Below are positions 1 through 21,725 of a stretch of DNA of 21,725 nucleotides, one piece after another (the first letter of the stretch is position 1; each line of letters opens with the position of its first letter). Both the position numbers and the translations under genes were made by a program. Source of the DNA: a virus. The notes under the pieces are model-generated. The model saw only the letters and a list, made by a program, of their open reading frames with translations, ran no database searches and was not told where the DNA came from. The stretch is taken from positions 1 through 21,725 of IMG/VR virus record IMGVR_UViG_3300028027_000920; one strand, 5' to 3'.

Positions 1-1799
1 TCAATGAGTTTATCACGTGATAGATTGCCATAAAACTTACGAACAAGAGGGTCCAAGGAAATATAGCAAGAATCAGTATCACTGTAGAAAGAGTAGTTGT
101 GTCCATTTGTTCCTACAACCTTGTTAAGATAGACGTCAAGTGCCTTACCTACTTCCTGAATAATATACTGACCAGTCGTAGTGATGCCCTCGGCAATACG
201 AGCATCATAGTAACGGAAATATTCATTTGCCAACGCACCGAACAGTGAGTTCAACTGAATCTTTCTTGCCATCTGGAAGTTATTATACTTCGAGATGTCA
301 TTCTTTAGTTTGGGATTTTTAGTTTCTTCATATTCTTTCTGAGCAATGATCATCAGTTTCTTATACCGTTGTCGGTCATCAAAGAACTTCTGAACAATCT
401 CAGGAAACATTCCCATCTTCTTACGAGTATAGCAGTAACCATTGGCAGTCATACAAACATCATCTTGTTTGAGATCCTCGAGGTCATAACTATGCCCAAG
501 CAATCCCTTCACCGTTGTGTCTTTTACTACACCCTGAACGAAAGTCTCTGGTGATTGGTTATACTGCATGATGATTGATGGATACAGCGAGGTAGCATCA
601 AAGGAAACAACCCAGTCATATCTTCCTGCCTTTGGTTCTTGCACATACGCACCCTCAATAGTCCTACCCCTGTTTTCTTTCTTCTGGGGAATCTGGATAT
701 TTTGATCATGCAAGTGATTGTAGATAATACAATCCCACGTGCGAACCTGTGAGAACACATCAGTATAATTGCACTTAGCATCGTATGCCATTGTAAGCAC
801 AAGTTCAATAAGTTTCATCTTACGCTCAAGTTCGTCGACGATCTCAACGTCGATGATGTTATACTCGACGAACCGTGTCCAGTCTTTGGTGTAAAACTCA
901 CGGAATGTTTCATACGGATGTTCAAGTTTTTTCTTACCAAGTTCTTCCTTGGCAATGTGATCCAACTTGTAACTCTCTTGTCGAGTATATGTAAACTTCT
1001 TATAGAGATCGAGATAGTCGATAACTGCAACGCCAGTAATATCATATGAGATATGTTCGCGACCCATGATTGTTAAATTCTTACGGCGAACGAGACCCCA
1101 TGGCGAGAACTTCTTGCGCATAGTGGTATCTTCTTCGGTGCAGAACAGACGATCTATCCGAGAGATAAGATACGCAACGTCGAACAGTTCGCAGTTCCAA
1201 CCTGTGATAATATCTGGGTGATCGTCAGAATAGAACCGCAGAAAAGTTTCTAGCAGGTCGCGCTCATCATCACATTTCACATAGAGAAACTTGTTACCTG
1301 CATCTCTCAGAGTCTGAACAATCTCAGAGTTCTTATCATCAAACTCACCGCAACCGAATGTGATGATTTGACGGGTGATAAGATTCTTGACTGTGATCAG
1401 CAGAACACTTTCGATAGGATTGTTTACATCAGGAAACCCATGCTCTGCAGAGGTCTCAATATCGACAGTCTGAATATTGAGTTGAGACATATCCCACTGA
1501 ATTTCACCAGGATATTTCTTTGTGATGTATTGGTAACCATAGTTGGTCTGACCAAAGATTTCAAAGTTGTCTACTTGTCCATATGTTTGGACGAACTGCT
1601 TGGCAGCATTGTTGTCTTCAAAGTCAATCGGTTGGAGATCTTCTCCATACAGAGACTTGTATTTTGTTTCTTCACCACCCTTGGATTTTACAAACAGGGT
1701 CGGACTGAAGTCATCGCGTTTGGTAAGGCGCACACCGTTATGTACTCCACGGACAAGAACCTTGGAACCATACTGGTGTGCGCATGTATAAAATTTCAT
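1..1799 (-). CDS. 43: Family B DNA polymerase gp43, N-terminal two thirds (3' end outside window)
   Basis: The replicative DNA polymerase with 3'-5' proofreading exonuclease. Translation from ATG at 1799 runs open to the window edge (about 599 codons). Exonuclease motif I DIET is at residues 113-116, Exo II (N202 to D207 in ITGWNCELFD) follows, and an Exo III-like YNIID lies further on. Polymerase motif A reads FDATSLYPSI, motif B is around KIQLNSLFGA, and motif C YSDTDS is coded near position 80. T4 gp43 is about 900 residues, so roughly 300 C-terminal residues, including the clamp-binding tail, are missing because the window ends. A GAGGG ribosome site lies 8 nt before the ATG. The gene has its own sigma70-type promoter just upstream (1825-1853), separate from the clamp/clamp-loader operon. 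No intein or frameshift is visible in this part. Confidence 0.97.
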   Translation of the reverse strand, partial: MKFYTCAHQYGSKVLVRGVHNGVRLTKRDDFSPTLFVKSKGGEETKYKSLYGEDLQPIDFEDNNAAKQFVQTYGQVDNFEIFGQTNYGYQYITKKYPGEIQWDMSQLNIQTVDIETSAEHGFPDVNNPIESVLLITVKNLITRQIITFGCGEFDDKNSEIVQTLRDAGNKFLYVKCDDERDLLETFLRFYSDDHPDIITGWNCELFDVAYLISRIDRLFCTEEDTTMRKKFSPWGLVRRKNLTIMGREHISYDITGVAVIDYLDLYKKFTYTRQESYKLDHIAKEELGKKKLEHPYETFREFYTKDWTRFVEYNIIDVEIVDELERKMKLIELVLTMAYDAKCNYTDVFSQVRTWDCIIYNHLHDQNIQIPQKKENRGRTIEGAYVQEPKAGRYDWVVSFDATSLYPSIIMQYNQSPETFVQGVVKDTTVKGLLGHSYDLEDLKQDDVCMTANGYCYTRKKMGMFPEIVQKFFDDRQRYKKLMIIAQKEYEETKNPKLKNDISKYNNFQMARKIQLNSLFGALANEYFRYYDARIAEGITTTGQYIIQEVGKALDVYLNKVVGTNGHNYSFYSDTDSCYISLDPLVRKFYGNLSRDKLI

Positions 1800-9136: not shown

Positions 9137-11392
9137 TCAAGCAACTGCTTGAATCATTTTGTTCAGCAGAACACGGTTGGTCTGCTTTTTGTTCTGAAAC
9201 TTCTTGAATGCTTGACGAAGTTTCTTCGGAGAATTATCTTCAGACTCCAGAACATCTTCCTCGATGCTCAAGTCTTCGCCACCTGGAATCAGGAAGCGGT
9301 CATTGAAACCGAAAGAATTTTTAGTGTGGAAATACTTTTGCTTCCATTCCTCTTTCCACTTCTTATCGAAATCTGCGGCAGAGTTATGCATACGTTTAGC
9401 AGCCCACTTTTGATTGTAACTGGCGATGAAGAAGTTGATAGTCCGCGAACCAGTTGCCTTCTGATACAAGTTGAGAAGTGCAGTTTGCATCTGGTACGAA
9501 TTATTATCATCATACTTAACGATCGTAACAGCACCAGTGGTAGAATCGGTGATATTTACATGGTTAGCACTATAGCGCGAACCTGAACCTTGGATGCTGA
9601 TATTGCCATCACCATCACCATCAGTCAGGAAGATAGTGTTCAAAACTTCAACGCGATTCTTAGCACGAAACTTATCAGCAATCGAACGAGCAACCATGAT
9701 TGATTCCTCGAGGGGAGTCGACGCCAGACCCATGATATTAGAATTGCGGAAGAATTTTTCTTCTTTCTTGCGACGAAGACGATAATCATATCCCATGCCG
9801 CACATAAGAAGGTTGCGAACTACCTCATTAAACTTACCCGAAGAACAATTATCGGAAAGGAACTGCAGCAGACTGAACGAGTTGTCACCAATGATAAGTT
9901 CTTTGCCACTTGCTCGTGCCGCATCATTGCGACGTTCGCGCATTTCATTTCCTAGAGGGAAACTGTCAGTGATCATACCGTTGTTGGTAAAACCATAGAC
10001 TTCAAACGGAATGCGAACCTTGCGGCAGAACATCATGAGAGTTACCAACTGCTCAATCGTGCCACGCATGTTTGTTGCCATAGAACCAGACATGTCGAGG
10101 AACAAAAGCATACCATGGTTTTTGCCATCAGGAACAACTGTGTTACGAGCAAACAAATCTTCGCTGATTTTATGTGCCCACACACGGTCAACGTCTAGAC
10201 GACCAGTCTTAGCAACCTGCGCACGAGCGAACTGAGAAGCGCGACGACGCAGTTCAAATTCCTGCACCATCAGGTTGATATACTTCTGGTTCTTGTTGCG
10301 GAAGTCAGAATAAACTTCGTTGGCAGTCGTGTCATAGTCAATTGTTTTTGTCAACCAGCGATCACTGTATACTGTAGGACGCATGTTATCAATGACCCAA
10401 TCCATAGGAATGACATAATCCTTGAGTTCAACCTTGCGGAGAATACCATAAGCATACGGACGCGACTTCGAGTCAATGAATTCTTCTTCCTTCTCACGGA
10501 ACATCTGATCAGTGATAGAAATAGGGTCTTCATCGAACACTGGCACATCGTTCGAACCTGGAAGTTTCACACCAGTATTAGGTTTACCAGCATCAGCATC
10601 GTCTTCACCAGAGTCACCGTCAGAGTCGGTATCACCAGCAGCATTCTTACCAGAATCAGCATCAGCATCGTCGGCAGGTTTATCAGCAGTTTCACCATCG
10701 CTATCGGCAGCACTATCACCAGTTGACTGGTCAGAATCCATTTCTGAAATCCACTTATCAACATCACCAGCAGCATCATCGTCGCCTGATGTTTCCATCA
10801 TTTCACCCATGAACGTTGACGAATCAAAGTCATACTCAGGTTCAGACTTAGCGAGTTCGTAGAGTTCTACTGCGAGCGTAGCAACATCATCCCATGTTTC
10901 CAACGCATCAACGCGAGCAAGATACTTACGCTCATCGTCGCTGAAGGGAGCAGCAAGCAAGGAACCAACCTTGTAATGCAGGTTGATACGGTCAATGAGG
11001 CGCAACTTGTTGAGGTCATATCCCTTAACACCGAAGAAGTTGTTGTTGAACAATTCCTGATAACCAGCGAAGAAGTTCTTGCGGATACCAGGAAACTTGT
11101 CCTTAATCTTACGCTCAATACGAGCATCCTCAAGAACGTTGAGGTAAGACTTGATGCCCATACCACGCTGGTCGATTTCACCGTGCCAACCCTGAGCAGG
11201 TGTGAACAATGCGTGACCAACCTCATGACCAATAAGCAGGTCATAAAGGTCGGTCGACATATCTTTCCAGATGGGGAGGATAAGGGTGCGATTCTTCAGG
11301 TCGAACATCGCGGTCGGAACCTTCTGATGTTCAATCCGAAGGTTCTCAGTAGCGAGCAATTTAGCAAGGGTAGACTTATGGGAAATAGACAT
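9137..11392 (-). CDS. Zinc metallopeptidase-like protein with C-terminal VWA domain (CobT-like partner)
   Basis: A 751-residue protein with three parts. Residues 1-190 are a gluzincin-like domain with HEVGH (56-60) and downstream NVLEDAR (85-91) supplying possible Zn ligands. Residues about 190-290 are a very acidic, low-complexity D/S/G/A linker. Residues about 425-640 are a von Willebrand A domain with the MIDAS motif DMSGS (433-437) and a later FLTDGDGDGN. The tail is basic. CobT/MoxR-associated VWA proteins share the acidic linker plus VWA design and are moved by an AAA+ partner, which is coded next (cobS-like). GAGG with ATG 11392 gives the better start; a GTG lies one codon upstream. 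It has its own promoter. Whether it cuts protein or acts as an adaptor is unknown. Confidence 0.88.
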   Translation of the reverse strand: MSISHKSTLAKLLATENLRIEHQKVPTAMFDLKNRTLILPIWKDMSTDLYDLLIGHEVGHALFTPAQGWHGEIDQRGMGIKSYLNVLEDARIERKIKDKFPGIRKNFFAGYQELFNNNFFGVKGYDLNKLRLIDRINLHYKVGSLLAAPFSDDERKYLARVDALETWDDVATLAVELYELAKSEPEYDFDSSTFMGEMMETSGDDDAAGDVDKWISEMDSDQSTGDSAADSDGETADKPADDADADSGKNAAGDTDSDGDSGEDDADAGKPNTGVKLPGSNDVPVFDEDPISITDQMFREKEEEFIDSKSRPYAYGILRKVELKDYVIPMDWVIDNMRPTVYSDRWLTKTIDYDTTANEVYSDFRNKNQKYINLMVQEFELRRRASQFARAQVAKTGRLDVDRVWAHKISEDLFARNTVVPDGKNHGMLLFLDMSGSMATNMRGTIEQLVTLMMFCRKVRIPFEVYGFTNNGMITDSFPLGNEMRERRNDAARASGKELIIGDNSFSLLQFLSDNCSSGKFNEVVRNLLMCGMGYDYRLRRKKEEKFFRNSNIMGLASTPLEESIMVARSIADKFRAKNRVEVLNTIFLTDGDGDGNISIQGSGSRYSANHVNITDSTTGAVTIVKYDDNNSYQMQTALLNLYQKATGSRTINFFIASYNQKWAAKRMHNSAADFDKKWKEEWKQKYFHTKNSFGFNDRFLIPGGEDLSIEEDVLESEDNSPKKLRQAFKKFQNKKQTNRVLLNKMIQAVA

Positions 11393-11420
11393 CACGGAAC
11401 CTCATCAATTAATATATTTC

Positions 11421-11449
11421 ATTCTACCCTATTTTGGCAGAAATGTCAA
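11421..11449 (-). promoter_or_regulatory. Sigma70-type promoter for the peptidase-VWA gene
   Basis: The minus strand reads TTGACA, 17 bp, TAGAAT, about 30 nt before the ATG. The -35 region shares a 17-nt identical stretch with the promoter at 11846-11874. Confidence 0.8.
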
Positions 11450-11456
11450 GCCCTAA
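11440..11456. repeat. 17-nt direct repeat of the promoter -35 region (copy 1; copy 2 at 11865-11881)
   Basis: GAAATGTCAAGCCCTAA occurs identically at 11440-11456 and 11865-11881. In both copies it covers the -35 box TTGACA of a minus-strand promoter and the flanking GGGC. Shorter versions (GGGCTTGACT, AGGCTTGACT) occur at the promoters near 9106 and 12518. This suggests a duplicated or selected extended -35 element. Confidence 0.8.
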
Positions 11457-11474
11457 AATCACTTTCAGGATAAA

Positions 11475-11822
11475 TTAATTACAGCGAGTGATGCGCTTTT
11501 CGTAGTAGTCACCATATCTGTCTACGCCGCTGGTAAAAATTTCACGGCAGACAGGACGACGATAGTGATAATCATATTCACGCTCAAAAACTTCGCGATC
11601 GGTCGCACGTTCGTCGGGTTGTCTGCGACTTGCAGCAGCACCAAGGATGAAGGCACCTACGCCGATAGCGATTGCTTCGCCAGTGCTAATGCGAGAACGT
11701 CTATGCTGGCGATCATCCCTGCGTTGTTCCCAACCATTACCATCACGATGACGTGCTTCAGCAGCGACAGGAGTCGCAACCACAGCGATAGCAATCAAAC
11801 TTGAAACAATATTCTTAATCAT
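11475..11822 (-). CDS. Small exported or membrane protein with glycine-zipper-like segment
   Basis: A 115-residue protein that I do not recognise by name. Residues 1-23 form a clear signal peptide or anchor (K3, hydrophobic IVSSLIAIAVVATPVAA, likely cleavage at AEA). A highly charged Arg/His/Asp-rich stretch (HRDGNGWEQRRDDRQHRR) follows. Residues about 45-66 (STGEAIAIGVGAFILGAAAS) are small-residue-rich like a glycine zipper or second membrane segment. The end is Arg/Tyr-rich with two Cys (CREIF and the terminal RCN) that could form a disulfide in the periplasm. AAGGAG lies 8 nt before the ATG, and it has its own early-type promoter. An envelope role during infection is inferred from the signal peptide alone. 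Confidence 0.75.
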   Translation of the reverse strand: MIKNIVSSLIAIAVVATPVAAEARHRDGNGWEQRRDDRQHRRSRISTGEAIAIGVGAFILGAAASRRQPDERATDREVFEREYDYHYRRPVCREIFTSGVDRYGDYYEKRITRCN

Positions 11823-11845
11823 ACACTTTCTCCTTCTATTATTCC

Positions 11846-11874
11846 ATTCTACTATAAAACGAATGAAATGTCAA
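11846..11874 (-). promoter_or_regulatory. Sigma70-type promoter for the small exported protein gene
   Basis: The minus strand reads TTGACA, 17 bp, TAGAAT, 24 nt before the ATG. The -35 box abuts the stop codon of the HAD gene. Confidence 0.8.
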
Positions 11875-11877
11875 GCC

Positions 11878-12483
11878 CTAATATTTCGTCATCGTTCCGT
11901 CGTGATGAGCGAGGTAGGGTTCAAACTTGATGTTCGGATATTCTTTAGCAAGACCCTTGAACATTTCAAGATTTGATACGGCATCATCGAACAGGCGAAC
12001 GCGAGCGTATTTGCCTGTATCGAGATATTGTTTGATGTAGATTTTCTTGCCTTCTGCAGAGTTCGGAGCATTAAGATTACCAGCGCGATGCACGTGGATA
12101 TCGTCAATGTCGATGTTTTGTTTGCGGAAGGTATCTAGGAACACGTCACGGTCATCAAAGTCAGCACGAGCAGTGATAACAATCATCTTGCTGCCTTTTG
12201 CTTTGACGTTCTTGTGAATAGCAATCAACTTATTAATTGCCTTCGCGATAGGTTCAGATGTATCGCGGAAGTGCTTGGCATCGCGGAACTCGCGGAAGTC
12301 AAAGGACTCACCAGCACCCAGTTTGTAGGTGTTAAACTCTTGGTTTGAAAGTTTCCGAACCAGTTCGCCACCCTTCATAACATAGATGAGTGCCTTAGTG
12401 TTGAAGAGGGTCTCGTCTATGTCCCAAATGGTCAGACCAGCACCCTCTTCGCGTTCGTAAATATAATCTTTAAAACCAATCAT
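11878..12483 (-). CDS. HAD-superfamily phosphatase
   Basis: A 201-residue hydrolase. Motif I is WDIDETLF with nucleophile D21 and acid D23. Motif II is VITAR (T104). Motif III Lys is probably K147 or K148, and motif IV is LFDDAVSN (D166, D167). This is the pattern of small HAD phosphatases, including the 3'-phosphatase domain of T4 polynucleotide kinase and nucleotidases. No kinase domain is attached. The likely substrate is a phosphorylated nucleotide or nucleic-acid end, but this is inference. ATG 12483 is the only start that keeps motif I. It has no ribosome site, and its promoter's -10 box ends 6 nt upstream, so the mRNA may be leaderless. It follows clpP by 37 bp. Confidence 0.88.
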   Translation of the reverse strand: MIGFKDYIYEREEGAGLTIWDIDETLFNTKALIYVMKGGELVRKLSNQEFNTYKLGAGESFDFREFRDAKHFRDTSEPIAKAINKLIAIHKNVKAKGSKMIVITARADFDDRDVFLDTFRKQNIDIDDIHVHRAGNLNAPNSAEGKKIYIKQYLDTGKYARVRLFDDAVSNLEMFKGLAKEYPNIKFEPYLAHHDGTMTKY

Positions 12484-12489
12484 AGAATT

Positions 12490-12518
12490 ACTATACCTGC
12501 TTTTTCCGTAAAAGTCAA
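12490..12518 (-). promoter_or_regulatory. Sigma70-type promoter giving a probably leaderless HAD mRNA
   Basis: The minus strand reads TTGACT, 17 bp, TATAGT, then six bases and the ATG of the HAD gene. The expected RNA start falls on or within a base or two of the start codon. The -35 box lies just after the clpP stop. Confidence 0.8.
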
Positions 12519-12520
12519 GC

Positions 12521-13129
12521 CTATTTATTCGTTACTGGTTTTTTTCTTGCACGTTTTGGTTGTTGAGTTTCTTCTGGCGGATCTTGTGCCACGATACGCT
12601 TCTCTAGACGCTTCGCGACCTCGTCGGCATCCAACCAGATATCCTTGTTGTCAAGCATCGACTTAATTTCTTCAGGAGTCAAGAAGTCCTTATAGAATGA
12701 ATCAAATAATTTTTCTGACCAAGACCTGAAGTGTGTGATTTGATCATACATCTCACCACCCTTACCGATTGTGCCACTGGAATAATTGTGGAACATGAAC
12801 ATGGTGTGGTCAGAGAGTTCGAACCTGTCTGCTGATAAGAATATCAAAGTCGCAGCACTCATACAAATACCTTCAACCGAACAGACGATAGTGGCATTTG
12901 ATTCCTGCATCGCACGAACCAGTTGTAACGCAGAGAACAAGTCACCACCTTCACTGTTAATGCGAATGTAGATTATATCAGTCTCACCTGCTGCTCGGAG
13001 AATCTGAAACCATTCAACATAATCTTCCGCTGGTTTAATTTCACCACAGAGATAAAATGTTACAGCAGTTGCTACTGGTTGCTGGAAGAACTTAGGTTTA
13101 GGAAAAAAGGGCAGGTCATTCTCACTCAT
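12521..13129 (-). CDS. clpP: ClpP-like serine protease
   Basis: A protein of about 202 residues (from ATG 13129) of the ClpP/crotonase fold. The nucleophile Ser91 is in GICMSAATLI, with oxyanion GG at 61-62 (NSEGGDLF). The catalytic His114 is in MFHNYSSG and the third residue is Asp163 in NKDIWLDADEV. The tail is Pro/Lys-rich. Phage ClpP enzymes often work in prohead maturation; this gene is far from the head genes here, so host-protein or regulatory proteolysis is also possible. No ClpX/ClpA ATPase is coded in the window; it might use a host unfoldase. The start is uncertain. ATG 13129 overlaps the previous stop but lacks a ribosome site; ATG 13168 adds 13 residues and has AGGA 12 nt upstream. 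Confidence 0.9.
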   Translation of the reverse strand: MSENDLPFFPKPKFFQQPVATAVTFYLCGEIKPAEDYVEWFQILRAAGETDIIYIRINSEGGDLFSALQLVRAMQESNATIVCSVEGICMSAATLIFLSADRFELSDHTMFMFHNYSSGTIGKGGEMYDQITHFRSWSEKLFDSFYKDFLTPEEIKSMLDNKDIWLDADEVAKRLEKRIVAQDPPEETQQPKRARKKPVTNK

Positions 13130-13487
13130 AGTGTCGCGTGATCGCGGTGATTTTGTCAATTTGTGCATCAATAATTGGTATCCTGTTTGGCCAATGAATA
13201 TACTCCTTCTCAGGATTCTTCATCAGGTTGTAAAGTAGCGGAAGAATCAGATCTTCGACTTGTTTTAATTTCTCTGATACTTCCATTTCAACGAGTCGTT
13301 TGTGTTCAGAGAGCATTGGTGACTGGTCTGCAGTCAGAATGCGAGACTCGATGTCGTAAAGTTTTGCCATAATCTCATCTTTGAGATCGCCAGTGTCAAC
13401 TGTTACTTGTGTGGTTGTTGCTGTTGGATTGTTTACTTCGATTGGATCTTCAAATGTGAATCCAAAATCATAGGTTGTGTTTGACAT
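13122..13487 (-). CDS. Conserved-looking T4-like phage protein of unknown function
   Basis: A 121-residue protein. The N-terminal third (YDFGFTFEDP, then Thr/Val-rich) looks flexible. The remainder is helical with a heptad-like pattern (LKDEIMAKLYDIESRI, then EMEVSEKLKQVEDLILPLLYNL). It ends in a motif that I recall from T4-like marine phages, EKEYIHWPNRIPIIDAQIDK, but I cannot attach a function. A coiled-coil oligomer is plausible. It overlaps the deformylase gene by 20 bp and the clpP start by 8 bp, so it is locked into that unit. No catalytic motif, Cys pair or signal is visible. Confidence 0.8.
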   Translation of the reverse strand: MSNTTYDFGFTFEDPIEVNNPTATTTQVTVDTGDLKDEIMAKLYDIESRILTADQSPMLSEHKRLVEMEVSEKLKQVEDLILPLLYNLMKNPEKEYIHWPNRIPIIDAQIDKITAITRHYE

Positions 13488-13983
13488 ATTTCCTCAGATA
13501 CTTTCTTGCTCGTTTGTTTAAAGACTTGAGTGCCATATCGAGTTTCAACTGTGATACATGATCAGAGAAATTCAATCCTTCCATATGATCAAATTCATGC
13601 TGGGCGATCCTCGCTTGAAGACCAACAAAAGTTTCCACAACATGGGTTCCATCAACTGTTTGATATGAAAGAGTAACTTGCTTAGGGCGTTTTACAGACA
13701 ACCACAATCCAGGATATGATAAGCAACCCTCCCGTGCAAGTTCTGTATCCTTGGAGACAGAAACTACTTGAGGATTAAAAACATTCTTACGATTCGTTTC
13801 ATCAGATCCCATCACAAAAACCTTAGAGTCGATACCAACCTGATTGGCAGAAAGTCCAAGTCCCTTTAGGCGGCGGCATTCTTCCCACAAAGTATCGGCG
13901 AGTTCCTGTGCATTTGCAATTTCAAAGTCAAATGTTTCTGGAACCTTGCGCAAAGCAGGGTCTGTAAATTTAAGTAATTCCAT
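13468..13983 (-). CDS. def: Peptide deformylase
   Basis: A 171-residue metal enzyme that removes the formyl group from new protein N-termini. All three motifs are present: GLGLSANQVG (41-50), EGCLSYPG (85-92) with metal ligand Cys87, and QHEFDHMEG (128-136) with ligands His129 and His133 and catalytic Glu130. The Ala usual in GxGxAAxQ is Ser-Ala here. The C-terminal basic extension (KRARKYLRKYVKH) is short. Deformylases occur in T4-like phages of cyanobacteria, where they are thought to sustain processing of host proteins. The ATG shares one base with the gp46 stop (TAATG), placing it in the 47-46 transcription unit. Confidence 0.95.
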   Translation of the reverse strand: MELLKFTDPALRKVPETFDFEIANAQELADTLWEECRRLKGLGLSANQVGIDSKVFVMGSDETNRKNVFNPQVVSVSKDTELAREGCLSYPGLWLSVKRPKQVTLSYQTVDGTHVVETFVGLQARIAQHEFDHMEGLNFSDHVSQLKLDMALKSLNKRARKYLRKYVKHNL

Positions 13984-15698
13984 TATACCACCATTTCACT
14001 GTAATTATTTTTCTTTTCAAACTTAATCAAACTACGGAACTTATCAAACAGTTGATCACCCTTGTGACTGATAACAAATACATTAGTATCTTCGCCCACA
14101 GTATCAAGCAATGTCATAACATAATCGGTGCCATTATTGTCTAACGAGGAATCAAACACCTCATCTAGAATAAGCAGATTAGTTGCTACGCTGTTCTTCA
14201 TCTTAGCAATTGTTCTCCATGTAAAGAGAAGCGCCAAGTCGATGCGTTGCTTTTCACCTTCTGAGAACGAAGCATAACTAAAGTCATCACGATGTCGAGA
14301 CTTGATAGTTTCATCAAACTTCTCATCAAGATTAAACTGCACGAAGAAGTCCATTGCTTGTAGATATTTATTCACCAGTTTATTGATAACTGGAAGATAC
14401 TGCCGAATAATCTTAGTCTTAATACCAGTGTCCTTGAGGAGTGTCGAGACAACTTCCATGTAATGCTTTTCTTCATTCAGTCTTGCCTTCTCCTCGTTCT
14501 GCGTCAGAACTTCCTTAGCATATGACTTGAGTTTTTTCTTTTCTTCATCAATATCTGCAGTCTTGGTTGTAATGTCATTCAGTTCTAGATTTAGTGCTTG
14601 GATTAGACGCTGTTGGACAATCATCTCGTTGTTATTACCAAGGATTTCTTTGTTGAGGACTGCTATCTGTTCACCCAGTTCTGCATGCTCTGCAATCAGA
14701 GTATCTAACGCCGCAAACTCCTGTTGAAGTTTTTCCATTCCTTCTGTCAGTTCGCCGATCTTATCTTGCCGCGATGTCACAATTGTTTCTTTGTGATCAT
14801 GCGCAATGCCTTGGCGACAAGTCGGGCATTCATCCGTATCATTATAGAATGCTACTTCTTTTTGCAACTCACGAAGTTGCGTAGAGAACTTGGTCTTGAA
14901 TTGCTCTAGTTTCTTCTGCTTGACACTCAACTCACCAAGAGATTTTTGCTTTAGTTCTGTATCTTCTTTGCTGGTTTCTAAGTTTGTTACCAGAGTTGTG
15001 AGAAGAGTTATCTTGTCCTCGCCATCAGCGATGCGACTCAGAATTTCATCAACTCTCTTTTCTTTGTTCGCCTCAAGCGTATCGACATACTCTTTCTGGA
15101 TGGTTGCCTTCTGCTTCAGGACTTCTAGTTTACCATCAGCATCATGAAGACTGTCTTTAAGTTCGTTCATCTTGTCACGCAGAACAGTATTCATTGTCGT
15201 GAAGATTTGAATATCAAGAATGTCCTCAATAATTTCGCGACGAACAAATGGTGGCAACTGCATGAATGGAGTAAACGATGCCGAACCCAGAATAACAATC
15301 TGAGTAAACGACTTGTAATTTAGTTTGAGAACTGATTCCTCGAGATACTTCTGGTAGTCACGAGCAGCAGCATCCTGATTGATTACTTCGCCATCAGATT
15401 GAATCTCAAAGATGTTAGGTTTAATACCACGAATAATCTTATAATCTTTACCACCAATATCAAACTCAATTTCAACAAGAAGGTTTTTCTTGTTAATCGA
15501 ATTTAACAGTTGTGGTTTATTGATACTACGAAAAGGTTTACCAAACAATCCAAAGCAGAGAGCATCGAGCAGAGTGGATTTACCACCACCATTCTCACCA
15601 ACAATCAAAGTGCTAGGCGAACGGTTGAGTTTTATTTCAGTGAAAGTATTACCTGTCGAAAGAAGATTCTTCCAACGAATTGTTTTAAAATTAATCAT
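13983..15698 (-). CDS. 46: Recombination endonuclease subunit gp46 (Rad50/SbcC-like)
   Basis: The ATPase subunit of the gp46/47 complex that resects DNA ends for recombination-dependent replication (571 residues; T4 gp46 is 560). Walker A GENGGGKST is at 34-42, the Q-loop is near residue 133, and a long coiled coil spans about 175-410. It is split by a zinc hook CPTC (291-294). The ABC signature SFSEGEKQR is at 477-485, Walker B LLILDE at 508-513 with a D-loop SSLD, and the H-loop His is in ISHKGD. The start overlaps the gp47 stop (ATGA). The coiled coils are short, as in the T4 form. Confidence 0.97.
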   Translation of the reverse strand: MINFKTIRWKNLLSTGNTFTEIKLNRSPSTLIVGENGGGKSTLLDALCFGLFGKPFRSINKPQLLNSINKKNLLVEIEFDIGGKDYKIIRGIKPNIFEIQSDGEVINQDAAARDYQKYLEESVLKLNYKSFTQIVILGSASFTPFMQLPPFVRREIIEDILDIQIFTTMNTVLRDKMNELKDSLHDADGKLEVLKQKATIQKEYVDTLEANKEKRVDEILSRIADGEDKITLLTTLVTNLETSKEDTELKQKSLGELSVKQKKLEQFKTKFSTQLRELQKEVAFYNDTDECPTCRQGIAHDHKETIVTSRQDKIGELTEGMEKLQQEFAALDTLIAEHAELGEQIAVLNKEILGNNNEMIVQQRLIQALNLELNDITTKTADIDEEKKKLKSYAKEVLTQNEEKARLNEEKHYMEVVSTLLKDTGIKTKIIRQYLPVINKLVNKYLQAMDFFVQFNLDEKFDETIKSRHRDDFSYASFSEGEKQRIDLALLFTWRTIAKMKNSVATNLLILDEVFDSSLDNNGTDYVMTLLDTVGEDTNVFVISHKGDQLFDKFRSLIKFEKKNNYSEMVV

Positions 15699-16750
15699 AC
15701 AGAAACGTGCTGTGCCTCAATATACAAAGTCCTTAACATGTTCTTAATCTTATCTTTATCAAGATCGGTACTGACGGTGTCAACAAAATCAGACAGAACA
15801 GTCATCGTATCTTCTACATCCAGTTTATCTTCTTCAATTACATCTGCTTCGAACTCAGAGAAGTCTTCGATGATTTTCAATTCGATTAAATTCAAATCAT
15901 ACAATTTATCCACGAAGCGATCGAACTTATAGAAGTCTGCTTTCTTGACTACGATTAGTCTTACGCAACTGCCACTAATTGCTCCAAGGTCCATACTATT
16001 AGGATCGCCAGCAGTATCATCATAGTACAACTTATGAAAGATTTTAAATGGGTTTTCACAAAACTCTACCTCATTAGTTTCCGTCTCATATATGTGATAC
16101 CCTCGAGGGTCATTATAGTCAGACCAAGTAAACTCATAGGTATTACCAAGATACAGAATATTACCAGTACGACTGCGATGGTGGAAATGACCACTACATA
16201 CGAGAGGAAATCTATCAAAACGTTCAGTGCCCATTCCATGATCATTTTTGTGCCCACGATACATTTCAAAACCTGAAAATTCAAAGTGTCCGAATACTGC
16301 TTGTGCATTACTTTTATCTACAACCTCCATGGTCTCATCATAGTTACCAGAACAAATCCATGGAACGAGCAATAGATTCTTCCCACCCAGAACGATTTCT
16401 TCTGCGCTGGAATATGTGATAACATTTTCGTATTCGCGCAGCAACAAATCTAGAGAGTTTACTTCGTTGGTATTCTTGAAGAATGTGTCATGATTACCTG
16501 CAATCATGTGGACATCAATACCAAGATCGCGAGTCTTGTCAAAGAAATACTCGCGGCACTTCTTCAGCGTATTGTAATTGATAAACTTGCGTCGATCAAA
16601 GACATCACCAAGATGGATAATAGTTTTGATTCCTTCACGTTCTAGATGAGGGAAAAACACCTCAGTATAAAACTTCGCAAAGAAGTTATCAAACGGAATA
16701 GAATCAGACCTAGCACCGAAGTGAGTGTCTGTGATCAACGCAACCTTCAT
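15695..16750 (-). CDS. 47: Recombination endonuclease subunit gp47 (Mre11/SbcD-like)
   Basis: The metallophosphoesterase subunit of gp46/47 (351 residues; T4 gp47 is 339). Metal and catalytic residues are in order: D8 and H10 in TDTHFG, D49 in HLGDVFD, N86-H87 in GNHD, H155 in FGHFEFSG, and H188 and H190 in SGHFHHR. The C-terminal ~100 residues form the capping/Rad50-contact region. ATG at 16750 follows the TM protein stop by 15 bp, so both share a transcript. In T4-like phages this pair supports join-copy recombination and host DNA breakdown. Confidence 0.97.
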   Translation of the reverse strand: MKVALITDTHFGARSDSIPFDNFFAKFYTEVFFPHLEREGIKTIIHLGDVFDRRKFINYNTLKKCREYFFDKTRDLGIDVHMIAGNHDTFFKNTNEVNSLDLLLREYENVITYSSAEEIVLGGKNLLLVPWICSGNYDETMEVVDKSNAQAVFGHFEFSGFEMYRGHKNDHGMGTERFDRFPLVCSGHFHHRSRTGNILYLGNTYEFTWSDYNDPRGYHIYETETNEVEFCENPFKIFHKLYYDDTAGDPNSMDLGAISGSCVRLIVVKKADFYKFDRFVDKLYDLNLIELKIIEDFSEFEADVIEEDKLDVEDTMTVLSDFVDTVSTDLDKDKIKNMLRTLYIEAQHVSV

Positions 16751-16765
16751 ACTCGAACTTTCTAA

Positions 16766-17095
16766 TTACTTTGCAGGTGTAGTAGGTTTCGCTTCGGTAG
16801 GAACTACTTCTTCCAACTTTTCTTCAGTCGTTGTTTCTACATCACCTTCTTCGGCGAGACGCTTAAGAACAATCTGACCGTCACAGATCATGTAGTGTTG
16901 TTCGGCGCCAAGATCGCTTGACTCCAGATAGATGCACCCTGCATTCTGCTTAGAAACTTCTTGAACACTATTCCTGTGACTGATGACGTCACCCACCAAT
17001 GACCCAATGATTACAAAAAATAAAATCGCCAACCCTGCCGTAAACCCATTCTCTGTAAACCATGCAACGTACTTGTTAGTTTTTACTTCAGACAT
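16766..17095 (-). CDS. Single-pass membrane protein of unknown function
   Basis: A 109-residue protein. After a short N-terminus (MSEVKTNKYVAWFTENG) comes one membrane helix, about residues 19-38 (AGLAILFFVIIGSLVGDVIS). A soluble tail with Cys pairs (AGCIYL and YMICDG) and an acidic/Thr/Pro-rich end (EEVVPTEAKPTTPAK) follows. AAAGGAG is 7 nt before ATG 17095, which decides this start over an upstream ATG at 17113. Its promoter lies in the 3' end of gp55, and it leads the unit into gp47/gp46. I do not recognise a family. A membrane role tied to recombination is only suggested by position. Confidence 0.75.
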   Translation of the reverse strand: MSEVKTNKYVAWFTENGFTAGLAILFFVIIGSLVGDVISHRNSVQEVSKQNAGCIYLESSDLGAEQHYMICDGQIVLKRLAEEGDVETTTEEKLEEVVPTEAKPTTPAK

Positions 17096-17127
17096 ATACA
17101 ACTCCTTTAACAATGTTTAATAAATCC

Positions 17128-17156
17128 ATTCTACTCTATATCAAGAGAATTGTCAA
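17128..17156 (-). promoter_or_regulatory. Sigma70-type promoter for the TM protein-47-46-def-clpP unit
   Basis: The minus strand reads TTGACA, 17 bp, TAGAAT. The -35 box and spacer lie inside the last codons of gp55, and the -10 box spans its stop codon. It is the likely early promoter for the recombination nuclease genes. Confidence 0.8.
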
Positions 17157-17742
17157 TGATTTTTTGGTCTAAATATTTTGGTCGACGCTTCGGTAAGTTA
17201 TTGACCTTTGGTGCATCTGGTTTATCGAACTCATCAATCATGTCCATTTGCTTCTTGACATAGTCAATAAACTCATTGCCGTAGTCACCTGTATCGTGGT
17301 CTTGAGTAATCAAGTCATGAACATCAATGTTTCTCATGTATCGATACTTAGTTTGTTGCTGGCGTTTCTCTTTAGCGATGCGTCGCAGAAAGGCATAGTA
17401 TGTTATCTGTGTGAAATACGCGAAGGGATTCTTAGACTTTTCAGGATTGAAGTTATCGATGTAAGTAATACAATTTTCGATACCATCCGATACCATTTCT
17501 TCTCGATACGTATAGTTGATGAAGTTACTCTTGTATGCCAAGTGAGTTGCGATCTTTAGAAAGCATTCTCCGATGTAGTTGGGGATACGGGGTTTCAATG
17601 TTCCTGCTTCTTTTGCAGCAAGAACACTATCTCTATACTTAGTAATCTCTTCTAAAAACTTAGAGTTATCTACATAATGTATGTTGTTTTTCTTATTCTT
17701 TTTGAATGGTTTTTTCACATTCTTTTCTGGTATTTCAGTCAT
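17131..17742 (-). CDS. 55: Late sigma factor gp55
   Basis: A highly diverged sigma factor (203 residues; T4 gp55 is 185) that directs host RNA polymerase to TATAAATA late promoters. T4-like landmarks are YREEMVSDGIENCITYIDNF and NPFAYFTQITYYAFLRRIAKEKR (sigma region 2, -10 recognition). The N-terminus is very Lys-rich (KKPFKKNKKNN). The last residues (KYLDQKIIDNSLDIE) may include the clamp-binding tail, but the T4 hydrophobic end is not obvious. GGAG is 7 nt before the ATG. It has its own promoter. The exact late boxes at 3397 and 20847 fit its presence. Confidence 0.95.
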   Translation of the reverse strand: MTEIPEKNVKKPFKKNKKNNIHYVDNSKFLEEITKYRDSVLAAKEAGTLKPRIPNYIGECFLKIATHLAYKSNFINYTYREEMVSDGIENCITYIDNFNPEKSKNPFAYFTQITYYAFLRRIAKEKRQQQTKYRYMRNIDVHDLITQDHDTGDYGNEFIDYVKKQMDMIDEFDKPDAPKVNNLPKRRPKYLDQKIIDNSLDIE

Positions 17743-17765
17743 TTATAACTCCATCTATACATACC

Positions 17766-17794
17766 GTTATACTATACTTTTTCTTATTAGTCAA
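17766..17794 (-). promoter_or_regulatory. Sigma70-type promoter for gene 55
   Basis: The minus strand reads TTGACT, 17 bp, TATAAC. A TATAGT at 17771-17776 is a better -10 match but is only 12 bp from the -35 box. The RNA start would lie about 20 nt before the gp55 ATG. Confidence 0.65.
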
Positions 17795-17827
17795 TGATTT
17801 TTTTTCACTATTATTTCAGTATATAGC

Positions 17828-17856
17828 TTGACAACACTCGCGATTCGAGGTATAAT
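17828..17856 (+). promoter_or_regulatory. Consensus sigma70 promoter on the plus strand (divergent from gp55)
   Basis: TTGACA, 17 bp, TATAAT: both hexamers match the bacterial consensus exactly. The spacer holds a CTCG-N5-CGAG inverted repeat. It is the only clear plus-strand promoter in a window with no supported plus-strand gene. Downstream lies a 12-codon ATG frame (17861-17899), then the 3' end of the Sm-like gene in antisense. Confidence 0.75.
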
Positions 17857-17895
17857 GACTATGTCGAGTATGATGAATAATAGCTTTACTACTGC

Positions 17896-18264
17896 TTAAT
17901 TGAGTAGGTTTCTGCTTCTGAGCAGTCGGGAGTGGAGCAGGTCGAGATCTAAGTTTCCCTCCTGGGTCTCCTCGGGAAGTTTTACTTCTCCGGAAATATA
18001 TTTTTGATACTGTTCTAGAAGGTTCTCTCTCAAGAGGCAGACAGTAATTACTTCAGACTTGGGTACGAGGAAAATCTTCTCTGTGGTAATACCAATCCAT
18101 GGTTTCAGAAGAAACGTTTCCCCGACAACATCTTCTTGAATTATAGGATAGGGAACCACCGCAATGGGATTATCCATCCAGAATAAATCGTTCGATTCAC
18201 TGTCTCTTATCGATGCGATTACTAAATCGCCATTCTTAAATTTAATTACCTTTGGTGTTTCCAT
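17896..18264 (-). CDS. Small conserved protein, Sm-like-looking, paralogue of 2500-2799
   Basis: A 122-residue protein with the same plan as the 99-residue protein at 2500-2799: IKFKNGDLVIASI, then NPIAVVPYP, FLLKPWIGI, LVPKSEVITVCLL, and L.Q.YQKYISGEVKLPEE. It differs by a longer middle loop and an extra C-terminal ~25 residues, rich in Leu/Arg/Ser (DLDLLHSRLLRSRNLLN), likely helical. It overlaps the end of uvsW by 23 bp, so it is co-expressed with the recombination helicase. No function is known to me; a small beta-barrel is inferred. Its 3' end would be covered by any RNA from the plus-strand promoter at 17828. Confidence 0.8.
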   Translation of the reverse strand: METPKVIKFKNGDLVIASIRDSESNDLFWMDNPIAVVPYPIIQEDVVGETFLLKPWIGITTEKIFLVPKSEVITVCLLRENLLEQYQKYISGEVKLPEETQEGNLDLDLLHSRLLRSRNLLN

Positions 18265-19771
18265 CAGTAGATATCCTCACGAGTTTGTATCTAAAACCTT
18301 CTTCATTATATAACTTAATTCTCTCTATCATGTGTAGTAGAGTGTAATTTTTTCTGCTTTTCCAAGACAAGTCATCACCAATATCAAAAAGACGGCAGGA
18401 AGTTTTGTCATCCCCCTTACGTAATCCTCTACCAATAGACTGGAGATTTCTTACTCTAGATTTCGAGGGAGAAGCGAATATGACATTATGTAGATTCCTT
18501 ATATTTATTCCCGTCGAAAACGTGCCGTATGATGCGATGATCACTGCATCTTTTTCTTTCTCGGTAATCTCTCGAACCTTCTCGCGTTGTTGAGTGTCAG
18601 TTCCGCCATGAACAAAGAAAACCTGACGAGAATTTCCGACCTTCTCATTGATCAAGTCATACAACACCGCACCATGTTTCTCAACAAACTGGAATAGCAC
18701 CAGCGTGTTGCCTTTTTGTGTGGTTGCTAGATTCTTGATTATGTTGTTGCGTTTTTGGTGTGTTACCAACCAGTCCATTTCTTCTTGGTAGGTATACTTC
18801 GTTAGTGCTTTCTTCTCTTCATCAGCATAATCTAACACGATGCAAGTTATGTCTAGATCAGCAACAGATCCTTGTTCCATTAATTCTTTGGTCGAGATAA
18901 CCTTATGCACCTTACCGAACAGACCCTCGAGAATTAACTTATGCGTCTTAGTCCCATCGAGAGTACCAGTAGTTCCGATGCGAAACTTAGTCTTGGTGCA
19001 CTTATTGAAGATTGACGTCAGCGATTTCGCTTTGAAAAGATGCGCTTCGTCTCCATATATAACATCAAACTCATCAAAAAACTTTTTAGGTAATTTGTAG
19101 ATGGATTGCCACGTTGATATAGTAATGGGATACTCATTCGACTTCTCGAACCCTGAATAGATTCTCGCACAATTATAACTTGCTTTCCAGTCTGTTTCCG
19201 AGGCATAATCTTGAAAGTCCTTATACATTTGTTCAACTAGGGAAGTGGTTGGGACGATGATCAATTGCTTGCGCCCAAATTTCTGGTGGTAACGCATCAA
19301 CAGATAGATGATCAGCGACTTACCTGATGCAGTTGGTGACAGTAGCAGAGTTCTGCCGATACGAATCGCATACTTGACAGCATCTAACTGATAGTCTCTT
19401 GCTTCGATCGGTTGACCTTGCGAGTGGAGATTCAACGAGTCGGCATATTCAACCAGTTCTTCGTAGGTTATTGGGTCTCCGATGCGTTCGATCTGAACGT
19501 CCATCTCATATTCATTACGCTGGCAAAATTCCCTGAGATATGGAAGAAGACCTACGTAAAGTTCTTTAGTCCACATATTAAACAACCGTGCCTTGCCATC
19601 CCATAACTTAGCGCGATAGGTTGGCATAAATTTTGCTCCTGGAACATCAAACGTAAAGTAGTCGTTGAGTTCCTGTGCAATGCTGGGGTCGCATTCCACA
19701 TTCAGATACACTTCATCTTTTTTAGTGATTGTTAGATCGGTCACATTAATCCATTTGTAAACTTGGTCCAC
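18242..19771 (-). CDS. uvsW: UvsW helicase
   Basis: A superfamily 2 RNA/DNA helicase (509 residues; T4 UvsW about 500) that unwinds R-loops, reverses forks and moves branches, switching origin use to recombination-dependent replication. An N-terminal ~110-residue domain precedes the motor. The Q-like motif ARDYQLDAV is at 124-132, Walker A SPTASGKS at 145-152, motif Ia VPTTSLVEQ at 173-181, DEAH at 241-244, motif III GTTGTLDG, motif V region YGTFSTGINI, and motif VI QSIGRGLRKG. It overlaps uvsY by 31 bp at its start. Confidence 0.96.
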   Translation of the reverse strand: MDQVYKWINVTDLTITKKDEVYLNVECDPSIAQELNDYFTFDVPGAKFMPTYRAKLWDGKARLFNMWTKELYVGLLPYLREFCQRNEYEMDVQIERIGDPITYEELVEYADSLNLHSQGQPIEARDYQLDAVKYAIRIGRTLLLSPTASGKSLIIYLLMRYHQKFGRKQLIIVPTTSLVEQMYKDFQDYASETDWKASYNCARIYSGFEKSNEYPITISTWQSIYKLPKKFFDEFDVIYGDEAHLFKAKSLTSIFNKCTKTKFRIGTTGTLDGTKTHKLILEGLFGKVHKVISTKELMEQGSVADLDITCIVLDYADEEKKALTKYTYQEEMDWLVTHQKRNNIIKNLATTQKGNTLVLFQFVEKHGAVLYDLINEKVGNSRQVFFVHGGTDTQQREKVREITEKEKDAVIIASYGTFSTGINIRNLHNVIFASPSKSRVRNLQSIGRGLRKGDDKTSCRLFDIGDDLSWKSRKNYTLLHMIERIKLYNEEGFRYKLVRISTDGNTKGN

Positions 19772-20181
19772 TCAATCGCGGACTTAATATCCCATGTCCT
19801 ACTATTTAGTGACCGCAGAATCTGCTCTAATTGGTATAGGACTGCTTTGATATAATCAATCTTATCTTGCTGTTTGATCATCTCTTCATCACACTGAAGA
19901 ACATCATCCATCTCATTCTTTAGTGGTTTGAGACCTTGGTATTGATTCCACCCATGTTCTTCTAGTTCTTCGCGTGTAAGTTCTCCACGATAATACCGCA
20001 TCTTAGTTCTGCGCAAGCGATAATAATCTGCCTCTGCCTTGCGTAACTGCAGTTTAGAATTTGATAGTATGTTAAGATACTTGGAGTGTAACTCTGGTGT
20101 CTTAGTTGATTCTGGACCAAGATTTAATTGGTCGATCTTACAGTCATTAGACCATGACTCTTGGATTTCAGATAGTTTCAT
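19741..20181 (-). CDS. uvsY: UvsY recombination mediator
   Basis: A 146-residue protein matching UvsY (T4: 137) in length, in its opening LxEIQE pattern and its position beside uvsW. It also shares the arrangement L.SKYLNILSNSKLQLRKAEADYYRLRRTKMRYYRGELT, an amphipathic basic helix ending at YY.G. In T4 UvsY displaces gp32 and loads the UvsX recombinase on single strands. The C-terminal half (DEEMIKQQDKIDYIKAVLYQLEQILRSLNSRTWDIKSAIEWTKF) resembles the oligomerising region. It has its own promoter at 20208-20236. Confidence 0.88.
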   Translation of the reverse strand: MKLSEIQESWSNDCKIDQLNLGPESTKTPELHSKYLNILSNSKLQLRKAEADYYRLRRTKMRYYRGELTREELEEHGWNQYQGLKPLKNEMDDVLQCDEEMIKQQDKIDYIKAVLYQLEQILRSLNSRTWDIKSAIEWTKFTNGLM

Positions 20182-20207
20182 AATGCCCTCAATAGAAAAA
20201 TAATATA

Positions 20208-20236
20208 ATCATACTATAAAATTGCGCGAAAGTCAA
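20208..20236 (-). promoter_or_regulatory. Sigma70-type promoter for uvsY-uvsW
   Basis: The minus strand reads TTGACT, 17 bp, TATGAT, 26 nt before the uvsY ATG and just after the stop of the upstream structural gene. It would give early expression of the recombination genes independently of the late structural unit. Confidence 0.75.
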
Positions 20237-20239
20237 TAC

Positions 20240-20824
20240 TTAAAGTGGTGTAATTTCATAATGTCGATATTTAAATGCGGCGATACCTTGTAGGAAGTCT
20301 GCTCTACCAGTACTAATGTCAAAGTCAAGACCCTCTAGACTCACAGGGAAAACATCATAGTATGAGATCTTTACGTTTGGATTGTTATCAGAGTCGAGAA
20401 TAAAGAAGTCAGCATCAGAGAAGTTACCTAGTGCGCCAAGTCTTTTATCAGAAACTGCTGGGAATCTATATCTTTGACCCTCGTTCCAATCTTTGTATTG
20501 TTGACGATCTGTAGGAAACCCAAGACCGATTAACCAATTATACAATTCGATGTAGTTGCTCATATTTTCTTGAACAAGAAACCTGATCACCAGATCGCCG
20601 TATGCTAGTTTATCACCTGGAACTGGAATATCTGACAATGGTGTTTGAAATGTAGGTGAACCGAGTTGTATCGCTGGTATATTTGCTGCCTGACAGAAAT
20701 ACGAAACGTTTGGTAGATTGTGGATCTGAAATTTAAATCCATTTGGTTTCAGATAATCGAGATCGCTGGGTTGTTGATTGACCCAGTTTGCTTCTGTTAC
20801 ACCTAGTGATGTTTTTAATACCAT
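20240..20824 (-). CDS. Tail-tube-fold structural protein (gp19-like)
   Basis: A 194-residue virion protein. The pattern resembles the gp19 tail tube fold: a FKFQIHNLPNVSYFCQAANIPAI opening, then PTFQTPLSDIPVPGDKLAYGDLVIRFLVQEN, a YIELYNWLIGLG helix, and a beta-rich end with IAAFKYRHYEI. T4 gp19 is 163 residues and has the same order (CKA..LP, GD..FDDW.VTV). It lies directly after the capsid gene and behind an exact late promoter, which fits a structural gene. Other possibilities are a second tube-like or baseplate-hub protein, or tail-completion protein gp3. TGAGGG lies 4 nt before the ATG. Confidence 0.65.
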   Translation of the reverse strand: MVLKTSLGVTEANWVNQQPSDLDYLKPNGFKFQIHNLPNVSYFCQAANIPAIQLGSPTFQTPLSDIPVPGDKLAYGDLVIRFLVQENMSNYIELYNWLIGLGFPTDRQQYKDWNEGQRYRFPAVSDKRLGALGNFSDADFFILDSDNNPNVKISYYDVFPVSLEGLDFDISTGRADFLQGIAAFKYRHYEITPL

Positions 20825-20846
20825 AATACCCTCATATGTTTCATAC

Positions 20847-20854
20847 TATTTATA
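20847..20854 (-). promoter_or_regulatory. T4-type late promoter box TATAAATA
   Basis: An exact TATAAATA on the minus strand, 23 nt before the tail-tube-like gene and immediately after the gp23 terminator. There is no TTGACA-like element at 17 bp, as expected for gp55-dependent late promoters. The RNA start is expected near 20841. Confidence 0.8.
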
Positions 20855-20857
20855 ATG

Positions 20858-20886
20858 AAAATGGGGAGAGCATTTCTGCTCCCCCC
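20858..20886 (-). terminator. Terminator after gene 23
   Basis: The minus strand forms a 10-bp stem (one G-U pair) with a GAAA tetraloop (20863-20886), then ATTTT. It sits between the gp23 stop and the late promoter. A second, weaker hairpin (CCTCTC/GAGAGG arms, 20901-20919) precedes it. Confidence 0.8.
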
Positions 20887-20925
20887 AGTTTCTTAGCAAC
20901 CCTCTCTCTAACGGAGAGGTATCGA

Positions 20926-21725
20926 TTACATAAGGTTAGTAACCTTAACGCGACGATAGTATTGGTTGCGGTTGGCAGTGAATGTATCACCGTCAGTTGT
21001 ACCGTTCGACTGAGTTACGAATGGGTTAGCGATCATGCCGTAACGAGTCTTGAAACCAATTTTTGGTTGGAAGGTGTTAGGGTCGATAGCACGAACCATT
21101 TGTAGTGGAACGTATGGGCAATAGAAGATACCAGCGTCATAAGCATTAGCACCCTTATAACCAACAACATAGAACTGCGATGCAGCGCCAGTGTTTGCTG
21201 AGTAAGGATCAACGAATACCTTGTAACGACCGTTCAGCGTACCAACGAAGGTATTGCCTGTGTCATCAACTTGAAGAGTTGGCGAACCATTAAGTGCACC
21301 ACCTGTGTCAAGCATACCTGCCATTGCAAGAGCAGCAGCAACGTCTGACGAACAGATAATGAAGTTACCCTTACCACGACGAGTGTCTTGAGCGATTACG
21401 TTAGCGTCACGTTCGATGTTGAACAGAAGACCCTTGAAACGCTCAACCGACCAACGACCGTTTGAGTCAACGTCAAGATCGAAAGTACCAGCAGTTGCAG
21501 TCGAAGCAGCACCTGTCTTAGCAACCTTGTAGATCGTACGGATAACTTCGCGGTTGATTTCAGCAAGAATTTCTTGTGAAAGGATGTTGGAAAGTTCGCC
21601 TTCAGCGTCAAGACCGTGAATTGCCTTGAGATCTTGAGCGAGTTCTACTGTGTATTCTGCTTTAAGAGCACGTGTCTTAGCAGTTACAGTTGTCTTCTCG
21701 ATCGAGAATGCCATTTCGTTGAAGT
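20926..21725 (-). CDS. 23: Major capsid protein gp23, C-terminal part (5' end outside window)
   Basis: The HK97-fold shell protein of the T4 head. The reading frame is open to the window edge (codons for FNE precede the internal Met at 21714), so the visible ~266 residues are the C-terminal half. The highly conserved gp23 stretch MAFSIEKTTVTAKTRALKAE, then YTVELAQDLKAIHGLDAE, is diagnostic. Further conserved parts are INREVIRTI, the FIICSSDVAAAL segment, and PYVPLQMVRAIDPNTFQPKIGFKTRYG near the end. The internal Met at 21714 should not be taken as the start. It ends before two hairpins, one a strong terminator. Confidence 0.97.
   Translation of the reverse strand, partial: FNEMAFSIEKTTVTAKTRALKAEYTVELAQDLKAIHGLDAEGELSNILSQEILAEINREVIRTIYKVAKTGAASTATAGTFDLDVDSNGRWSVERFKGLLFNIERDANVIAQDTRRGKGNFIICSSDVAAALAMAGMLDTGGALNGSPTLQVDDTGNTFVGTLNGRYKVFVDPYSANTGAASQFYVVGYKGANAYDAGIFYCPYVPLQMVRAIDPNTFQPKIGFKTRYGMIANPFVTQSNGTTDGDTFTANRNQYYRRVKVTNLM

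Follow-up and report, generated by a model that had tools for sequence, protein, structure and literature searches.

The plus strand of a viral DNA record of 21,725 bases (the window, analysed over its whole length) carries an exact sigma70-type promoter, TTGACA-17-TATAAT, inside the 153-nt gap between a gp55-like gene and gene 139. The site is very probably a selected promoter, as judged from its constraint among close relatives and its fixed place in many phages. With no protein gene in front of it, it probably makes an antisense RNA. We consider it an evenly balanced proposition, given the sequence, that it is an early promoter for host sigma70 whose non-coding RNA would start at about 17863 and run antisense into gene 139 and uvsW.

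The promoter and its neighbours

The match to the consensus is 12/12, as a sequence-only reading had proposed, and it is the single exact TTGACA-16..18-TATAAT site of the record. The reversed pattern occurs 0 times, and about 0.01 exact sites would be expected in the window by a hand estimate from base composition. That reading had also placed the site above all coding-strand promoters and found no supported plus-strand gene; both claims hold, as sense-strand sites reach at most 11/12 when the whole window is scanned and PHROG gives no match to any of the nine plus-strand ORFs that are 100 aa or longer. Weak promoter-like sites are common (41 in the 11.7 kb from 10000 to 21725, compared with 27 in shuffles), which speaks for a chance match to the consensus that has no function. 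However, the constraint and the place-specific recurrence described below contradict this reading at the sequence level and make it hardly credible.

Read from its genes (gp44, gp45, gp46, gp47, gp62, gp55, uvsW, uvsY and hsp20), the phage is T4-like, and its translation suggests that a gp43-like polymerase is encoded as well. The nearest named records are cyanophages and Melnitz, with 68-70% DNA identity over about one third of 6.7 kb, and are Kyanoviridae wherever taxonomy was checked. Gene 139 has 122 codons, and its Pfam matches to Sm_like and DUF6561 fall below the cut-off. It is followed by uvsW and then uvsY, all on the minus strand like gp55 (Table 1). An antisense transcript would meet gene 139 first, 33 nt past the predicted +1, and then uvsW.

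Table 1. Coordinates of the antisense promoter and surrounding features in the window
Feature	Position	Strand	Remark
gp55-like late sigma factor gene	17131..17742	-	PHROG 234, E 7e-60
Sense gp55 promoter TTGACT-17-TATAAC	17766..17794	-	back to back with antisense promoter
-35 box TTGACA, antisense promoter	17828..17833	+	exact consensus; invariant in 19 distinct close relatives
Spacer of 17 nt with CTCG-N5-CGAG	17834..17850	+	3/17 positions vary in close relatives
-10 box TATAAT, antisense promoter	17851..17856	+	exact consensus; invariant in 19 distinct close relatives
GAC-TAT-GTC inverted repeat over predicted start	17857..17865	+	invariant in close relatives
12-codon frame, judged non-functional	17861..17899	+	length 1-67 codons over 26 representatives
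Predicted antisense RNA, conserved first part (untranslated)	17863..17930	+	1/42 variable over 17857-17898
Gene 139 (T4-GC 139, 'methylamine utilization'; Sm-like at best)	17896..18264	-	PHROG 471, E 2e-11
uvsW helicase gene	18242..19771	-	Pfam UvsW_N and helicase domains; PHROG 16

Other promoter-like elements lie elsewhere on the minus strand. Sense promoters of the form TTGACA/TTGACT-17-TAGAAT or TATAGT are found directly before genes at 17156, 12518, 11874, 11449 and 9106. At 3427-3365, TATAAATA, of the T4 late-promoter type, leads directly into a terminator-like hairpin and T run. A distant relative shows an equal arrangement at 90149 (+) of its record (G003) with paired stem changes, and a pattern search of the compared loci gave no further copy.

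Constraint in close relatives and recurrence in distant ones

Two scans of viral contigs, one of which gave the best 80 of 597 matches, provided 100 loci. Close relatives were compared as a set of 14 distinct sequences (25 loci) and as a larger set of 19 (50 loci). In the smaller set, a single position out of 56 varies in the promoter core (the -35 box plus two flanking bases, the -10 box and 17857-17898), compared with 3/17 in the spacer, 9/42 in the sense gp55 promoter and 10/25 in the stretch between the two promoters. Four-fold sites vary at 22/35 in gene 139 and at 38/55 in gp55. Setting the core against these sites together (1/56 vs 60/90) gives a Fisher p of 5e-17, which is only a guide because the sites share one tree.

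Across the 19 relatives neither hexamer shows any change, and variation over 17857-17898 is confined to 1/42 positions. The promoter is therefore under constraint, and so are 36 nt or more at the beginning of the predicted RNA. Further into gene 139, third positions of codons for invariant residues vary at 1/8 over 17899-17930, compared with 35/70 in the rest of the gene (p = 0.06), and third-position variation is low at the start of gene 139 too (5/21). Constraint that extends past what a promoter acting by pure interference would need hints at a sequence-specific role of the RNA start. The spacer contains a CTCG-N5-CGAG repeat that had been suggested as an operator. The repeat is present in the window, but it is confined to close relatives and imperfect there, with its G at 17840 among the three variable spacer positions of the 19 relatives and CTCA at a repeat arm in L004; as a general operator it is rejected.

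Conservation of the site had been named as a check, and its outcome strongly supports a plus-strand sigma70-type promoter directed in antisense against the adjoining genes; it extends well beyond invariant hexamers in close relatives. The antisense promoter is present in the gp55-side gap at 61 of the 92 loci examined, which drew partly on the scan giving the best 80 of 597 matches, with gp55 identity down to 46%. This figure derives from a census of 89 loci, of which 70 have an antisense site scoring 9/12 or more within 170 nt, 51 of them with the TGT described below. Adding to these 51 L010-L016 and L018, where another site in or near gp55 scores equal or higher and the expected site is still present, and removing L065 gives 58/89; Syn9, P-HM2 and S-PM2 bring the count to 61/92. 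Viral contigs whose gp55 is just 52-64% identical carry the promoter in the equivalent gap, and so do the cultured cyanophages S-SM1, Syn19, ACG-2014d, ACG-2014f, S-RIM2, S-CAM1 (the one with gp55 46% identical), ACG-2014i, Syn9, P-HM2 and S-PM2. The start would fall on the minus strand near 123698 in Syn9 (NC_008296), and in P-HM2 (NC_015284) about 35 nt beyond a -35 box whose first base is 120744. The -10 box is weaker (TATAAG, TATAAA or TATAAC) in L008-L016, L018 and L019, and the whole promoter reads TTTACA-17-TATAAG in L012 and L015. Wherever the gene order of a positive locus was viewed, the start faces the tail of gene 139, with uvsW beyond it.

These occurrences exceed the expectation from shuffles and are almost restricted to the gp55 gap. 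When loci are grouped into gp55 clusters at 80% identity, gapless ones included, 17/32 clusters contain a site of 11/12 or better, where dinucleotide shuffles predict 0.17; at 10/12 or better the figures are 20/32 and 1.75. These counts score the window's own gap as 0, and including it gives 18/32 and 21/32. As a control for place, we took 203 same-strand gaps of 60-400 nt from 28 loci and 7 long records. They hold 20 antisense sites of at least 11/12, which fall in 19 of the 25 gp55 gaps and in 1 of the 178 other gaps, after relabelling of the L042 gp55 gap, whose start codon had been called late; under the original labels the counts are 18/24 vs 2/179 (p = 1e-18). The 19 rows amount to 18 sites, as G002 duplicates the L007 site.

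At 30 of the 31 loci that lack the site, the upstream ORF abuts or overlaps gp55, so that there is no gap; in L062 and L063 the abutting ORF is not gene 139. Phages can therefore do without the site. Melnitz is the exception: its gap contains a site of 8/12 in which a -10 box and the TGT are retained.

In Melnitz a small opposite-strand ORF is annotated in the equivalent gap (132367-132462; L135 4368-4463 (-)); by position, it starts inside gp55, upstream of the -10 box. In gapless relatives such as L040, L049 and L063, an antisense 10-11/12 site with TATAAT recurs at the junction of the uvsW end and the next gene. These sites follow conserved codons and have no TGT start, and from this reading of the codons we set them aside as a by-product of a coding motif.

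The start element and the predicted RNA

Usual sigma70 spacing predicts +1 at G17863, within a TGT at 17862-17864, with A17861 possible. In 43 of 47 distinct downstream sequences a TGT begins at 5 to 7 nt from the -10 box, a slightly circular figure in that site choice favoured TGT by a half-point bonus. The other four (L012, L015, L057 and L065) are wrong picks, which were kept in the inverted-repeat mean below and left out of the RNA tests. With the bonus removed, TGT is found at 51 of the 70 sites of at least 9/12; the 19 others comprise eight loci where another site near the gp55 start was picked and eleven without a gap.

A short inverted repeat surrounds the TGT, and its arms differ by phage: GAC/GTC, AGGC/GCCT, AAGAG/CTCTT, CAGC/GCTG, CGCT/AGCG and AACC/GGTT. 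The mean repeat score is 9.72, compared with 5.9 for shuffles and 6.38 (sd 0.42) after exchange of right arms among the phages; 0/200 swaps reach the observed mean, a margin flattered by counting related sequences one by one. In the window the repeat has 3 bp only. As usual sigma70 spacing puts the left arm upstream of +1, the repeat looks like a feature of the DNA or the initiating complex rather than an RNA hairpin.

The start design is not confined to antisense sites. Syn19 has three sites of this design, and they include the sense promoters at +17298 (cpeT) and +50786. A close relative (the 96.5-kb record G001) has one and no second exact copy. A search with the AACC form returned 24 viral contigs (L185-L208), in 14 of which the element stands before a frame of 153-160 codons and in 1 before a 97-codon frame; 7 of the 24 are the antisense site beside gp55, and 2 are without a -10 box. 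The AACC-TGT-GGTT element may act as an operator or may signal initiation.

We compared the predicted RNA over 26 representatives, selected for carrying the antisense site. The ATG at 17861, from which a 12-codon peptide had been suggested, does exist, but the frame ranges from 1 to 67 codons and meets an immediate stop in 6/26. We reject the peptide, as the frame is not conserved.

A rival reading of the product is a short small RNA of about 45-70 nt that would act in trans, its overlap with gene 139 being incidental. Conserved sequence to about 17898-17930, equal to 36-68 nt of RNA, is consistent with such a product. In the L020 clade (L020, L021, L025, L029, L035, L044 and L046; 7/7 listed), the antisense RNA would stop after about 44 nt at a stem, AAGGATA...TATCCTT, with a T-rich run behind it; the stem is partly made of the sense gene's last codons. 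However, this terminator, convincing by eye in that clade, does not rise above shuffles over the representatives: a score of at least 5 within about 60 nt is found in 3 of 26, compared with a shuffle mean of 2.05, and 33/100 shuffles reach 3. Folding also argues against this reading. The tandem small stems noted earlier are present as sequence in the window, but its RNA is not unusually stable (z -0.96; 33/200 shuffles fold equally well or better), and over 31 sequences the fold z-scores are ordinary (mean -0.03 for 50 nt and -0.27 for 70 nt), so that the stems do not stand as conserved RNA structure. The window has no Rfam family at gathering scores. A structured small RNA is thus unsupported by fold z-scores or by Rfam (window), and we consider the trans-acting reading unlikely.

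Possible roles and known systems

The antisense promoter often has a close partner on the other strand. In the window, 33 nt separate its -35 box from that of the sense gp55 promoter. A sense site of at least 10/12 is present in 15/26 representatives, in none of which are the -35 boxes more than 35 nt apart, and the two promoters overlap in S-SM1, Syn19 and S-RIM2. This proximity favours a role in which the antisense promoter would tune the back-to-back gp55 promoter by polymerase competition or supercoiling, with the RNA irrelevant. However, in the other 11 representatives no sense site reaches 10/12, and the constraint runs 42 nt beyond the -10 box. The antisense site itself scores at least 10/12 in 25/26 with the TGT bonus removed, although this cannot be compared with 15/26 as a rate because the representatives were chosen for it. 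As the antisense site persists without a strong sense partner, tuning of gp55 by a promoter pair is not the whole story, and we regard it as a distinctly unlikely account.

We favour an early hold-down of gene 139 and uvsW by antisense transcription. T4 UvsW has a late promoter and unwinds the origin R-loops that prime early replication, as described in part of PMC3016281, and delaying UvsW would therefore make sense. Host RNA polymerase of the sigma70 type would start a non-coding RNA near 17863 early in infection; we infer the early timing because the promoter is sigma70-type and resembles the cpeT promoter. This transcription would lower expression of the 139/uvsW tail, through interference or RNA pairing, and the repression would last until gp55-dependent late transcription takes over. 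The job of the promoter would then be cis regulation at the border where the uvsY-uvsW-139 genes meet the gp55 module, an assignment that we make tentatively, at somewhat less than even strength. In cyanomyoviruses, part of PMC2984593 describes motA and asiA homologues as lacking and the early/late timing as unsettled.

A broader model joins these elements. An early non-coding unit, widespread in Kyanoviridae and relatives, may help to set the early-to-late switch by silencing UvsW or priming replication and may fall silent once gp55 replaces host sigma, while the start repeat, with its co-changing arms, may be a control element common to some protein-gene promoters. Taken whole, this sequence-derived model is speculative and rather less probable than the cis role. 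Lakes and oceans contain T4-like cyanophages and related phages in abundance. A promoter without a gene that is kept across many of these phages points to something hidden from gene-centred annotation, either a regulatory RNA or a start of replication.

The lambda OOP antisense RNA comes from a promoter that faces the end of an opposite-strand gene, and it ends at its own terminator. The gp55-side site shares the first of these features, a promoter running into the end of an opposite-strand gene, but is without a conserved terminator.

T4 replication origins offer a different parallel. The transcript could prime replication via an R-loop, for which oriF, oriG and oriE are T4 precedents, and oriE depends on an early promoter (both from part of PMC3016281). 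The likeness to oriE and oriF is a promoter whose RNA, not protein, would matter. In addition, the first 50 nt are slightly richer in A+T than the loci (66.5% vs 61.5%, mean of 26). The gp55-side site differs in having no lasting GC-skew change in four long records and no clear unwinding element, with A+T at 60.6% over +51..+100 (mean of 26). The missing skew change makes an origin less likely, although T4 oriA and oriC likewise lack one (PMC3016281, in part); overall we hold an origin to be improbable.

Within cyanomyoviruses, an antisense RNA, CfrI at psbA, has been reported, with expression in S-PM2 (PMC2984593, in part). The likeness is that both are non-coding, antisense and from a T4-like cyanophage. 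CfrI differs in locus (136544-136741 of S-PM2), and S-PM2 has the gp55-side antisense site too. The gp55-side promoter design was not seen in the sequence upstream of CfrI, and we reject a promoter design common to the two. The published Syn9 start-site map aside, no account of an antisense promoter upstream of gp55 was found among the titles and passages surveyed.

The sense promoter of cpeT in Syn19 (17298) shares TTGACA-17-TATAAT, a TGT at the start and the AACC/GGTT repeat with the antisense design, but it precedes a protein gene, whereas the gp55-side antisense site does not. Set beside these systems, the gp55 antisense site is a phage antisense promoter that is unusual both in how deeply it is conserved and in its start element.
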